From assembly GCF_023822045.1 (NCBI RefSeq), contig NZ_CP084712.1, forward strand, positions 2,170,001 to 2,234,000: a stretch of DNA of 64,000 nucleotides. Reading direction: 5' to 3'. Positions 1,974-53,660 of the stretch are shown piece by piece; the stretch's first letter is position 1; every line of letters starts with the position of its first letter. The position numbers and the translations under genes were made by a program. Under the pieces are notes generated by a model. The model did not search any database. It had not been told where the DNA came from and saw only the letters and a program-made list of their open reading frames with translations. This DNA is from Sphingopyxis sp. USTB-05. GTDB lineage: Bacteria; Pseudomonadota; Alphaproteobacteria; Sphingomonadales; Sphingomonadaceae.

Positions 1974-4078
1974 TTCGATCCCATTTTCATCACGCGGGCA
2001 TCGCCCCCCATATCCTCGCGCGCATCGGCGAGCGGCAGCCACAATGTGAAGCTGCTCCCCTTGCCCGGCTCGCTTTCGACCTCAATCGCGCCGCCCATCG
2101 CCTGCGCGATCTGCAGCGCTTCGAACGCGCCAAGCCCAAATCCCGAATCCTTCGTCGACACAAAGGGCTTGAAAAGTTCGTCGCGGATGAACTCGCGCGT
2201 CATGCCACAGCCCTGATCGATGACATCAACACGCACCCGCCCTTGCTCGGCCACCGCGATGACCTGCACCGGCGTGTCCGGGTCCGACGCGTCGATCGCA
2301 TTGCTGACGAGATGCTGGACGATCTGCCGGATCGCCCCCGCATCGGCCCATGCGGACAATCCCGCCTGACAGCCGACGAACAACCCACGGCGCGGACGCA
2401 TCTCCGCGGCAATTTCGTTCAGCACCGGCTCGACCAAGGTCCGTCCCGCTTCCGCCGCCGGCCCGCGCTCACGTGGAGACAAACGGACGAGCAGGTCCGA
2501 CAGTCGTCCGGCGGAAATCTTCAGCGTCTCGATCATGTCGGCGCGAAAATCCGGCTTGTCGGCATGACGCTCGGCGTTGCGCGCGAGCAGGCCGATCTGG
2601 CTCGCCAGATTCTTGATGTCGTGCATGATGAAGGCAAAGCGGCGGTTGAATTCGTCGAAACGCCGCGCCTCCGACAAGGCTTGCTGACTCTGCGATTCTG
2701 CAAGATAACTCGCCGCCTGTTGCCCGGCGATGCGCAGCACGTCGAGATCCTCCCAATCGAGCGCGCGCGAAACAGCAGGTCGATGCAAGACGACGACCGC
2801 GATCATCCGCTGGAAATGCAGCACCGGTACCATGACCCATGCGCGCGTGTCCGCGATCAGCCATTCCGGAATGGCGAGGTCAGCCCCTGCCTGCCCCCGC
2901 CGCTCGGCATCGAGGTCGACGATATGCTGTGTTTCCTGCAGCATGAAGGCCGAACGCAGAGAGAGTGTTGCATCCTCACTCCCACGATCCGGCCAGTGCC
3001 ATTGCTCGGCGATACGAAAACCGCTGGCTGCACCCGGCAGCATCAACAGCGCGCCTGGGCTTCCGGTCAGTTCGGCCAGCGCCTTGGCGACGCGGCGATA
3101 CAGATTGCGATCATCCTCGCCGCCGCCTTGTGCCAGCGTCGCCGTGAAACGCATCCATTCGGCGCGATAGTCATAACGATGCTCGAAGAAATGTTTGGAA
3201 ATCATCACCGACAGCCACGCGCGCGAACGCGACGAAGCGAGCATCAGGCCACCGGCACCGATCGCGACGACCAACGAGATCGCCTGCGCCAGTTCGGCAT
3301 AATCGCCGCCGACAACACGCGCGATGGCGCCCGTCAGTGCGATCACGATCAGATAGGCGGCCGCGCCCAGCAAGATCAGCGTGCGGGTGGCGGCGGTACG
3401 CGACAGGCGCATCCGCTCGCGCCCGATATCCAGTGCGGCGACGATATAGACGGGCAGGATCAGCAGCGCGATCGCCGGAAGCAGGGCAATCAGCATTGAT
3501 GCTATTTCGCCGGTCAGTGCGCCGATCAGTTGGACGTTAAGCTCATAGGCCCACAGCATCGCAAAGCCGCCGGCGACCGCCATGACCGGCATCCGTTGGC
3601 CCGCGCTTGCATGGCGCACGCCGCCATCGATGACGAGCAGTCCGCCGATTGCGACGATCAGGGTCGCAAAGATCAGGGTCGGCGCCATCCAGGGCTCAGC
3701 GGCCGCACCTGCCCGCAAATGCGCCGCGGCGCCAAGCAGAAAGGTCAGCACGCAGATCGTCGTGAGCATCCGCAAAATAAGGCGCAGGGGCCGCGAGATC
3801 GGTGCTCGCGGAGACCAGAAGGTCGCACCGATCCAGCCGAGCATTGCGATGTCGCGCAACGCCTGAACGACCAGCGACTGCGACGAGCCCGCTCCGAAAA
3901 GTGCCAGAGCACCGCACCACGATGCCGTCGCCGCAGCCGCCAGCGTCAGCAGGCGTGGCGCCGGCATCAGTGCTGCCATCCGCGAGCGCGATCGCGTCAG
4001 GAGCCAAAGCGTGACACCGGAATAACATGCCAGCGCAAGGGCCGACAGGATCTGGGACAGGCCCGCGAGCGTGCTCAC
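1970..4078 (-). CDS. prsK: PEP-CTERM/XrtA system histidine kinase PrsK
   Basis: 702 aa membrane sensor kinase. The N-terminal third is a row of about nine or ten hydrophobic helices, followed by a GAF-like region, a dimerisation helix with the phospho-acceptor in IMHDIKNLASQ, and an HATPase domain with N-box HLVSNAIDAS, G1 box DQGCGMT and G2 box GFGLGAFEAL. Length and order match the PrsK family (TIGR02916). The start taken is GTG 4078: it lies 2 nt after the upstream stop and has a GGAGGGGG Shine-Dalgarno about 10 nt before it. A GTG at 4102 is possible but would precede that site. It signals to PrsR; the stimulus is unknown. Confidence 0.92.
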   Translation of the reverse strand: MSTLAGLSQILSALALACYSGVTLWLLTRSRSRMAALMPAPRLLTLAAAATASWCGALALFGAGSSQSLVVQALRDIAMLGWIGATFWSPRAPISRPLRLILRMLTTICVLTFLLGAAAHLRAGAAAEPWMAPTLIFATLIVAIGGLLVIDGGVRHASAGQRMPVMAVAGGFAMLWAYELNVQLIGALTGEIASMLIALLPAIALLILPVYIVAALDIGRERMRLSRTAATRTLILLGAAAYLIVIALTGAIARVVGGDYAELAQAISLVVAIGAGGLMLASSRSRAWLSVMISKHFFEHRYDYRAEWMRFTATLAQGGGEDDRNLYRRVAKALAELTGSPGALLMLPGAASGFRIAEQWHWPDRGSEDATLSLRSAFMLQETQHIVDLDAERRGQAGADLAIPEWLIADTRAWVMVPVLHFQRMIAVVVLHRPAVSRALDWEDLDVLRIAGQQAASYLAESQSQQALSEARRFDEFNRRFAFIMHDIKNLASQIGLLARNAERHADKPDFRADMIETLKISAGRLSDLLVRLSPRERGPAAEAGRTLVEPVLNEIAAEMRPRRGLFVGCQAGLSAWADAGAIRQIVQHLVSNAIDASDPDTPVQVIAVAEQGRVRVDVIDQGCGMTREFIRDELFKPFVSTKDSGFGLGAFEALQIAQAMGGAIEVESEPGKGSSFTLWLPLADAREDMGGDARVMKMGSK

Positions 4079-51571: not shown

Positions 51572-52225
51572 TTATTTTTCGCGGCCCCTTGCCGCAAGAT
51601 TGGCGCAAAACCGACGGTGTCGTTCCTTCATCCGTTCGATCGCGGCGATGATCATCGGACGCGACTGGTTCACGCTATTCTCGATGATCAGCCCGCGCAC
51701 GCTCGCGATCAGCAGCCAGCCGTGCGGAACCAGCGCCTCGGCATCGGCGAAGCCCGCCTCCCGTGCGAGCTTGATGAACTCGTCGTGGATCTCCTGTTCG
51801 ACCCTGCTTGTGACCGGCTGCAATCCGTCGAGCAGTTCGCGATCCCAACGCGCCGCCAGCAGGATATCAGTCAACGCAAGCCCCTCAGGCTGCGAATGCG
51901 TTTCCCAAGAGATGCGCGCATAGTCGGACAATCGCTCGAACGGATCTTCGATTGCCTCGGCCATGCTGCGGGCCGCTTCCATGACGCCGCGCATCGCTCG
52001 CTCGGCGGTCGCCACCATTAACGCCACGCGGTTGGGGAACTGGTGAAGTACCGAGCCGCGGCTCAGCGCGGCCTCGGCCATAACATGCTCGATCGTGGTC
52101 GCAGTAAAACCCGCGCGCACGATGCATTTGATCGTCGCGTCGAGGATTTTTTCCCGCGTGTCGATGCCGCGTCGCGTCATTCGGCGCGACCGACCGGCAA
52201 CAGGAATAGAAGTCACATCGCTCAT
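51572..52225 (-). CDS. TetR/AcrR family regulator of the catabolic operon
   Basis: 217 aa. DNA-binding region TATTIEHVMAEAALSRGSVL followed by HQFPNRVALMV. Its length and helical C-terminus are normal. It lies upstream of the TonB receptor on the same strand and may regulate it through the dyad at 51539. No signal for the effector. The operon may be autoregulated. Confidence 0.9.
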   Translation of the reverse strand: MSDVTSIPVAGRSRRMTRRGIDTREKILDATIKCIVRAGFTATTIEHVMAEAALSRGSVLHQFPNRVALMVATAERAMRGVMEAARSMAEAIEDPFERLSDYARISWETHSQPEGLALTDILLAARWDRELLDGLQPVTSRVEQEIHDEFIKLAREAGFADAEALVPHGWLLIASVRGLIIENSVNQSRPMIIAAIERMKERHRRFCANLAARGREK

Positions 52226-52455
52226 AGGACCATTTGGCTGCGCAGCGTCAAAACGTCAAACTCGGTCGATGTCTGTCAGACGAACATTCCGGACTGGCCT
52301 TTAGCTGGCCGTCCGCTTTCCCATAGGATCAGCGAAAGCGAAGATCGCTGACCGCTCAGCCGTCGCCGCCGCATCGAACGCATATCGGCCGCACCCAGCT
52401 ATCGGGAGTGTGCCAATAGCTTGCCCGGCTTCGGCGTGCTCGATAAGGAGGTCCG

Positions 52456-52482
52456 ATGAAATCGGCCCCCTGTACCATCTAA
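52456..52482 (+). CDS. Eight-codon leader reading frame upstream of catB
   Basis: ATG 52456 lies 4 nt after AAGGAGG (52445-52451) and the frame reads MKSAPCTI then TAA. It is 118 nt before the catB start. Inducible chloramphenicol-resistance genes (cat-86, cmlA) are known to have such leader peptides for translational attenuation. The initiation region 52451-52466 is complementary to 52579-52594. Translation itself is inferred. Confidence 0.5.
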
Positions 52483-52578
52483 CCGCCTCCCGCACGAAGA
52501 TGTGTGGAGTAACGAAGGCGCGCCGATCCGGCCGCGCCTGCGGATGTTGCACGGCTTGAACAGCCGCCGGCGCACAGA

Positions 52579-52594
52579 GCCGGTTTCATCGGAC
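52579..52594 (+). promoter_or_regulatory. Sequence complementary to the leader ORF start, ending 6 nt before catB
   Basis: GCCGGTTTCATCGGAC (52579-52594) pairs with GTCCGATGAAATCGGC (52451-52466) across all 16 positions, one of them G:U. The stem would cover the leader's start codon and the GGA that is the only Shine-Dalgarno-like triplet before catB. A short hairpin GGCGCG/CGCGCC (52517-52538) lies within the loop. Confidence 0.5.
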
Positions 52595-52600
52595 GATTTC

Positions 52601-53224
52601 ATGACCAATTATTTCGATAGCCCCTTCAAGGGGATCACGCTCGACAAACAAGTCACGCATCCCAATATCCGCGTGGGTCGATACAGCTATTATTCGGGCT
52701 ATTATCACGGCCATAGCTTCGACGATTGCGCCCGCTTTCTTCTCCCCGACGACGATGCAGACAAGCTTGTCATCGGCAGTTTCTGTTCAATCGGGTCGGG
52801 CGCCGCCTTTATCATGGCGGGCAATCAGGGACACCGGAACGACTGGATCAGCACATTTCCCTTTTTCTGGATGCCGGAGGTGCCTGCATTCGAAGATGCG
52901 CTCAACGGCTTCACTGCTGCGGGCGACACAGTGATTGGCAACGACGTCTGGATCGGCTCCGAAGCCATCGTCATGCCGGGGGTCACCATCGGGGACGGCG
53001 CCGTCATCGGCACTCGAGCCGTCGTGACGCGCGACGTCGCGCCTTATACGATTGTCGGAGGAAATCCTGCGCGTCCGATCCGAAAGCGTTTCAGTGACGA
53101 AGACATCCTCCGGCTCGCCGAGATGCAATGGTGGAACTGGTCCGATGAGGATCTCAAGAGCGCTATGACATTGCTGACCGCTGGCAACGTCGAAAGCCTC
53201 TATAAGCACTTTTCTGCGAAGTAA
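52601..53224 (+). CDS. catB: CatB-type (xenobiotic, hexapeptide) chloramphenicol O-acetyltransferase homologue
   Basis: 207 aa. It begins [11 protein letters not shown] and carries [11 protein letters not shown] with the catalytic His of the type B family, followed by left-handed beta-helix repeats ([34 protein letters not shown]) and [13 protein letters not shown]. Type B enzymes acetylate chloramphenicol using acetyl-CoA. Size and start match the family closely. A GTG upstream at 52502 would add 33 residues absent in the family. The actual substrate may be different in a soil or water sphingomonad. It lies near a tRNA gene. Confidence 0.88.
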
Positions 53225-53584: not shown

Positions 53585-53660
53585 TGGTGGAGCCTAGCGG
53601 GATCGAACCGCTGACCTCCTGCATGCCATGCAGGCGCTCTCCCAGCTGAGCTAAGGCCCC
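53585..53660 (-). tRNA. tRNA-Ala (anticodon GGC)
   Basis: 76 nt including the encoded CCA. Acceptor stem GGGGCCT/AGGCTCC with one G:U, D-loop AGCTGGGA, anticodon stem CCTGC/GCAGG around loop ATGGCAT with GGC at positions 34-36, T-arm GCGGTTCGATCCCGC. Confidence 0.97.

Follow-up and report, generated by a model that had tools for sequence, protein, structure and literature searches.

That chloramphenicol can relieve translational attenuation is textbook knowledge, with most known cases on plasmids of Gram-positive bacteria. In the inducible catA genes of Gram-positive bacteria (catA86 and the cat genes of pC194/pC221), a short local hairpin lies over the cat ribosome site. A gene of another kind, cmlA, is an efflux gene. 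According to the available text of PMC8876359, the principle is that a ribosome stalled by chloramphenicol on a short leader frees a masked ribosome site, and such attenuation is also found on an integron cassette: in cmlA of the Tn1696 integron, stalling on a 9-aa leader peptide opens the downstream start in Gram-negative hosts, and this gene is carried by a mobile cassette, its 5' region having a strong Shine-Dalgarno site. Arrest by chloramphenicol is described as most efficient when the penultimate residue of the nascent chain is Ala, and less so with Ser or Thr (PMC8987054), and accessible parts of two reports agree that Ala, Ser or Thr at position -1 favours arrest (PMC8987054, PMC12121999). 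The E. coli toiL uORF (topAI) senses ribosome-targeting antibiotics and relieves the translational repression of the next gene, although, as far as the available text of that report goes, it is not induced by chloramphenicol, for which its authors offer the lack of Ala/Ser/Thr codons as a possible explanation (PMC12121999). In the Alphaproteobacteria, the leader peptide of Sinorhizobium meliloti trpL (rnTrpL) is described as translated from an mRNA that starts with the AUG (PMC10117765), as we infer for many of the leaders studied here, although trpL is a tryptophan attenuator that also acts in trans and not an antibiotic-stall sensor for a downstream gene.

Here we analyzed catB of Sphingopyxis sp. 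USTB-05 in a window of 64,000 nucleotides, together with the corresponding loci of other bacteria. A first-pass annotation had proposed that ribosomes stalled by chloramphenicol on a leader peptide open a long-range helix and switch catB on. Comparison among loci supports the core of this reading and changes its details regarding the arm and the leader start. We consider it likely that catB is controlled by chloramphenicol-dependent translational attenuation.

As far as sequence can tell, the catB leader shares the features of the classical cat attenuators. Like catA86 and the pC194/pC221 cat genes, it combines a short leader and a helix over the ribosome site with a stall, here predicted, that would free the site. 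It differs in its enzyme, which is of the unrelated CatB/xenobiotic acetyltransferase type, in its leader sequence, in its long-range pairing (the arms are ~80-130 nt apart), in the probable leaderless start of many leaders, which would have no Shine-Dalgarno site, and in its hosts, the Alphaproteobacteria. In the proposed model, it shares with cmlA the drug, a leader peptide, the opening of a downstream start by a stall and Gram-negative hosts. In contrast to cmlA, the gene concerned here encodes an acetyltransferase, is chromosomal in the focal genome and has a different leader; the leader precedes catB and not cmlA, in a genome assembled as a single 4.68 Mb contig, and is probably not of the integron-cassette type.

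The focal catB gene and its leader

The focal gene (52601-53224, forward strand, as are all features below unless stated) encodes a type B chloramphenicol O-acetyltransferase of 207 aa. The product scores 387.7 bits against the NCBIfam model NF000490 (chloram_CatB, cut-off 350) and, judged from this match, is a bona fide CatB, which bears out the homology proposed earlier. By sequence, its closest solved structures are CatB8 (8j40) and the xenobiotic acetyltransferase 1xat. The Shine-Dalgarno-like motif AAGGAGG (52445-52451, anti-SD pairing -11.7 kcal/mol) and the eight-codon leader frame MKSAPCTI (52456-52482; ATG AAA TCG GCC CCC TGT ACC ATC TAA) are present upstream as first annotated, and a GGA lies at 52591-52593, 7 nt before the catB ATG. 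An Rfam scan of the focal region returned a single sub-threshold match (17.5 bits, 80 needed), and a scan of eight catB loci returned two matches, neither of them over the leader. A tRNA gene lies downstream of catB on the minus strand (window ~53588-53660; Rfam RF00005, L001 2488-2560).

The long-range helix claimed for this locus was also recovered. Its 5' arm, GTCCGATGAAATCGGC (52451-52466), takes in the leader start together with codons 1-3 and the larger part of codon 4, and forms 16 pairs, including one G:U, with the 3' arm GCCGGTTTCATCGGAC (52579-52594), 112 nt away; the leader start codon and the GGA before catB both fall inside the arms, as proposed. A perfect helix of 16 pairs (G:U allowed) occurred in none of 1000 dinucleotide shuffles of the focal region, and one of 15 pairs occurred in a single shuffle. 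The comparison with shuffled controls that the annotation had suggested gave a clear difference: the 171-nt focal region folds at -73.1 kcal/mol versus -55.9 (sd 4.4) for 200 dinucleotide shuffles (z -3.92), one of which folded as well.

Spread of the leader among catB loci

A related leader, MK[S/A]A[D/P/H][C/R/S]T..., with codon-like conservation precedes catB as a short frame in 88 of 106 loci, nearly all of them alphaproteobacterial; the 106 include the named loci, which are the best 80 of 580 candidates. Repeats are among the 88 (L111 and L127 stem from one record, and others are probable), and a cut at 85% identity left 54 non-redundant loci.

In the family sample, 29 of 397 genomes encode a protein matching the focal CatB at E 1e-30 or better. 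Sixteen of these matches are close CatB proteins (69-100% identity), and each of the 16 has a related frame starting 145-163 nt upstream. The 13 loci of more distant acetyltransferases from the same search (L017-L029) have no MK-type leader; their best leader scores range from 8 to 22, with three of the 13 reaching at least 20 with unrelated peptides. Within the genus, CatB occurs in 11 of 80 genomes and the leader frame in all 11 (L001 and L012 among them). The class sample yielded matches in 4 of 385 genomes including the focal one, and the three new loci (L043-L045) lack the leader; they passed the leader score with an unrelated peptide and were counted as misses. These three come from three genomes of one genus, where the CatB relative is read from a TTG start and may be under different control.

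Among the named loci (best 80 of 580), the leader criterion was passed by 66 of 80, and by 65 of the 69 that are alphaproteobacterial by record title and taxonomy, a count that includes L065, titled only Proteobacteria. L054 has the same frame with a CTG start and L114 a degenerate form; no recognizable leader was found in the alphaproteobacterial L080, L123 and L043-L045. Nor did any of the ten loci from Xenorhabdus, Photorhabdus, Moellerella, Pseudomonas, Corallococcus and Nannocystis pass (seven gammaproteobacterial and three myxobacterial loci among the best 80 of 580). The 66th passing locus (L122) has a Rhodobacterales-type leader and catB in a record titled Enemella evansiae (JAFKDC010000021.1). 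Enemella is an actinobacterium, and the locus may reflect a misassigned contig or a transfer.

Plasmid loci carry the leader in six of seven cases, including a betaproteobacterial one from Achromobacter; the integron cassette gene catB3 (L132) has none. On the Achromobacter ruhlandii plasmid p138R (L129), the leader MKSADCTI, of alphaproteobacterial type, lies 138 nt before catB at 3001, the plasmid is typed as mobilizable and a transposase gene is nearby. Together these features suggest that gene and switch were transferred jointly.

Within the pattern searches made, the leader looks specific to catB. The DNA pattern ATGAARNNNGCNNNNTGYACNAYCT has 13 matches in the 397 family genomes, 12 before catB and one with an in-frame stop, and the reversed pattern has none. 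A related pattern, applied to the class sample for other target genes, matched in 5 of 385 genomes, and these matches were judged to be chance: four fall within open frames of 156-930 codons and the fifth within a frame of 47 codons, and none is in a genome with a class-sample CatB match. The class pattern is a partial test: leaders with Pro at residue 5 fall outside it, the focal one included (0 matches in the focal genome).

The leader finder is permissive. In a control that also allowed CTG starts, 9 of 108 reversed or reverse-complemented stretches reached a score of 20, the lowest score among the 54 real leaders; 47 of the 54 reach 24, and the highest control score was 26. The claim of a leader therefore rests on position, residue pattern and nucleotide conservation and not on the score.

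The first-pass annotation had regarded a chromosomal sphingomonad example as new; this locus is not an isolated case, given the related leader before most of the alphaproteobacterial catB genes examined. We recognized no paper describing this catB leader in the open-licence literature searched, and an earlier description may exist elsewhere. The original paper on A. tumefaciens catB is reportedly that of Tennigkeit and Matzura (1991, Gene).

Peptide conservation and the predicted stall

Across the 54 loci, conservation rises abruptly to a high level at the start codon of the leader. In codons 2-4 it is mostly confined to the first two positions, and in codons 6-9 it extends to the third, as if selection acted on the peptide in the first part and on RNA pairing after it. 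Residue 2 is Lys in 51 of 54 loci. Residue 4 is Ala, Thr or Ser in all 88 leaders (78, 7 and 3; in the non-redundant set Ala 47, Thr 5 and Ser 2 of 54). At residue 5, D, P and H predominate, and 53 of 54 leaders have C, R or S at residue 6. Residue 4 and the context rule for arrest together predict a stall with codon 5 in the P site. In the focal leader the P-site codon would be codon 5 (52468-52470) and Ala4 would occupy position -1, so that the leader encodes the stall context of a cat attenuator.

Some leaders (L006-L010, L073 and L111) end where the longer ones (L002-L005) read Cys (TGC). The short MKSADCTI* can be compared with the longer MKAADCTICIAFPRR, and in some cases what follows the stop retains a partial likeness to that peptide, as though the short leaders had been cut back from an older, longer one.

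Pairing of the leader with the catB start region

In most loci, the leader RNA from codon 6 onward is complementary to the catB start region. In sphingomonads TGTACC faces GGTAC(A), in many Rhodobacterales CGAACC...CTGAAT faces ATTCAGA.GGTTTG, and in other loci CTGCATC faces GATGCAG. Leader positions +12 to +45 pair better with the catB start region of their own locus than with swapped ones (mean -21.7 versus -17.6 kcal/mol over 54 loci; z -8.4, 0 of 10000 permutations), and codons 6-10 alone give z -8.4. Computed in this way, the ribosome site of the resistance gene would be sequestered by leader RNA, as in cat attenuators. When the loci were grouped by catB divergence into 16 clusters (threshold 0.22), the matching persisted (z -6.1, 0 of 10000); thresholds of 0.26 and 0.30 were uninformative because they put all loci in one cluster. 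The start arm alone showed no significant matching over the 54 loci (z -1.6, 615 of 10000). Three control regions gave z -2.5 (75 of 10000), +1.5 and +0.8, or -1.5, +1.0 and +0.4 by clusters; the mildly better value is that of the region upstream of the leader itself.

In the Rhodobacterales-type alignment, the register of the pairing is clear (80% of cells paired versus 19-44% when slid). Its covariation score was reached in 35 of 500 shuffles and its percentage paired in 63 of 500, this covariation being weak because the leader arm hardly varies. A hairpin directly after the leader (52487-52509 in the focal sequence) shows many two-sided changes in alignment A3 (columns 34-58, 13 sequences including the focal one), and a matching hairpin in alignment A2 (columns 33-54, 24 other sequences) likewise keeps its pairing through such changes. 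It would begin roughly where a ribosome stalled at codon 5 has its leading edge. Long-range pairs in A3 were not counted because some start regions were, by eye, misplaced by a base.

The focal locus departs from the common arrangement. Its start arm pairs at -30.6 kcal/mol with its own catB start region, the best of 54 catB start regions, and its leader from codon 5 onward reaches only -15.6 kcal/mol (rank 18 of 54). By this comparison, the masking arm is shifted to the start of the leader, which makes the start-arm helix a local variant; inspection of relatives turned up no helix of the 16-pair form. Start-arm helices of 9 to 11 pairs occur in L015, L016, L138 and L143; of the two genus loci that by eye most resemble the focal one, L138 has such a helix of 9 pairs and L145 has none of that kind. 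A design with the helix on the leader's own start, as first proposed, thus holds for the focal locus, whereas relatives mostly pair through codons 6-10. The annotation had named missing conservation of the arms in relatives as a refutation. The literal 16-pair arms are indeed not conserved there, but their function, the pairing of leader RNA with the catB start region, is.

Predicted effect of a stalled ribosome

We computed the cost of opening the catB start region with the footprint of a ribosome stalled at codon 5 masked. The mean cost fell from 10.06 to 5.28 kcal/mol, versus 9.82 with a control mask, and a drop of 3 kcal/mol or more was found in 37 of 54 loci with the stall mask and in 2 of 54 with the control mask. 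For the focal locus the cost fell from 14.7 to 5.5 kcal/mol (control mask 18.6). Opening under the stall-footprint mask is therefore found in most loci, not in all. In the genus, computed with 6 nt upstream of the AUG, the drop reaches 3 kcal/mol in 6 of 11 loci. Hardly any switch is predicted for L145 (4.1 to 3.7 kcal/mol), which has the same leader peptide as the focal locus. For L012 and L143 the reduction in cost is larger with the control mask than with the stall mask, and for L146 the control mask comes close to the effect of the stall mask.

The 5' end of the leader mRNA

A possible promoter zone (52421-52449) lies just upstream of the focal leader and overlaps AAGGAGG; it comprises a TTG that begins 35 nt ahead of the AUG and a weak element resembling a -10 box. 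The -10-like candidates, GATAAG (52442-52447) or TAAGGA (52444-52449), match poorly, and a strict sigma-70 consensus scan of 52200-52650 found nothing. Across loci, a TTG starts at -38 to -34 from the leader start codon in 39 of 54 cases (control windows of equal width have one in no more than 10 of 54), and YAT or TANNNT peaks at -12 (20 of 54). Of the 40 loci with a long spacer (leader start at least 136 nt ahead of catB, the spacing type of the focal locus), 36 have the TTG at this position, and these 40 long-spacer leaders show no Shine-Dalgarno signal (anti-SD -1.8 kcal/mol versus -2.5 in the control window). Given the -35/-10 position and the missing Shine-Dalgarno signal, most long-spacer leaders would lie at the very 5' end of their mRNA. 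The 14 short-spacer loci have the TTG in place in 3 cases and a Shine-Dalgarno-like signal (-5.0 versus -2.9 in the control), with an anti-SD energy of -4 or better in 8 of 14 versus 5 of 14 in the control window. A Shine-Dalgarno site of -4 or better precedes 6 of 7 leaders with GTG or TTG starts and 13 of 81 with ATG starts (repeats included).

AAGGAGG stands where relatives have their -10 box, so many leaders are probably leaderless. Its use as the leader's ribosome site is favored by the motif and its pairing energy; most relatives of the focal type have a -35/-10 pair there that would place the transcript start close to the leader AUG, and no Shine-Dalgarno signal. The focal motif lies within the promoter zone, and it may or may not serve as a Shine-Dalgarno site or be part of the transcript.

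Mechanism and alternatives

We propose that, without the drug, leader RNA would pair with the catB ribosome site and keep catB off. At a low dose of chloramphenicol, a ribosome would stall on the leader after five residues (here MKSAP), holding codon 5 in its P site and codon 6 in its A site, with Ala4 at -1. This ribosome would cover the leader arm and free the catB ribosome site, and CatB would be made. Computation established the leader and its conservation, the A/T/S at residue 4 and the pairing matched within loci. Stalling at this codon, induction of catB in this strain and control at translation are what we infer. In A. fabrum, catB is described in the available part of PMC12288460 as induced by chloramphenicol, and the leader is present in the Agrobacterium relative L117.

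That induction is given as relative gene expression, which a change in transcription or mRNA stability could also produce, for example if a stall on the leader relieved Rho termination without any masking of the ribosome site. The covarying hairpin after the leader would suit such a mechanism, and uORF-dependent transcription attenuation is described for duf1127 of S. meliloti (PMC12218461, available text). We nevertheless regard it as unlikely: no intrinsic-terminator-like site was found in 52200-52650, and a pure transcription mechanism does not need the within-locus match between leader and catB start region. The two modes of control can coexist. It is more improbable still that the TetR-family gene encoded head-to-head with catB (51572-52225, minus strand), 375 nt from it, regulates catB transcription and that the leader and helix are incidental. 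Searches with tblastn (E 1e-3) found no relative of this TetR in the flanks, at most 1.5-3 kb long, of 111 other catB-region loci, and most of these loci keep the leader, the conservation of which regulation by TetR would leave unexplained.

An alternative that we take more seriously, while leaning against it, is that the leader is real and the 16-pair helix partly fortuitous, with a transcript starting at the leader AUG and another fold acting in its place, such as a helix of 9 pairs between CGATTTCAT (52594-52602, covering part of the catB start codon) and ATGAAATCG (52456-52464). The -35/-10 position in relatives speaks for this, and when the 5' end is set precisely at the AUG, a mean pair probability of 0.94 is computed for the 9-pair helix and one of 0.03 for the rest of the 16-pair helix. 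However, two more upstream nucleotides lower the 9-pair helix to 0.02 and raise the 16-pair helix to 0.97 (0.95-0.997 with 2 to 20 extra nucleotides), and the focal -10 is a poor match. In these models the two helices are mutually exclusive and the catB start region is hidden by either, so this alternative is compatible with translational attenuation.

Translational attenuation thus remains our preferred reading: the leader is real and widely conserved, and, judging from the sequences, it most likely operates as the classical cat attenuators do. More tentatively, and with the balance slightly against it, these loci might represent an old alphaproteobacterial chloramphenicol sensor, in which a single leader-peptide family evolves together with the ribosome site of catB and, except in the Rhodobacterales type, is translated from a leaderless mRNA starting at the leader AUG. 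If so, a drug-stalling attenuator would operate on Shine-Dalgarno-free translation, and its masking arm could shift away from codons 6-10, in the focal strain as far as the start codon.

The aligned leaders form a natural set of dozens of predicted stall contexts (A/T/S at -1, with D, P or H as the usual P-site residue) on which the context rule can be tested, and, if they are leaderless, they would test whether such mRNAs support drug-dependent stalling. The leader offers a mechanism for the catB induction reported in Agrobacterium. Attenuation of catB would be shared by many Alphaproteobacteria, chromosomal in the focal genome and also plasmid-borne in others, which suggests long exposure to phenicols in soil and water.
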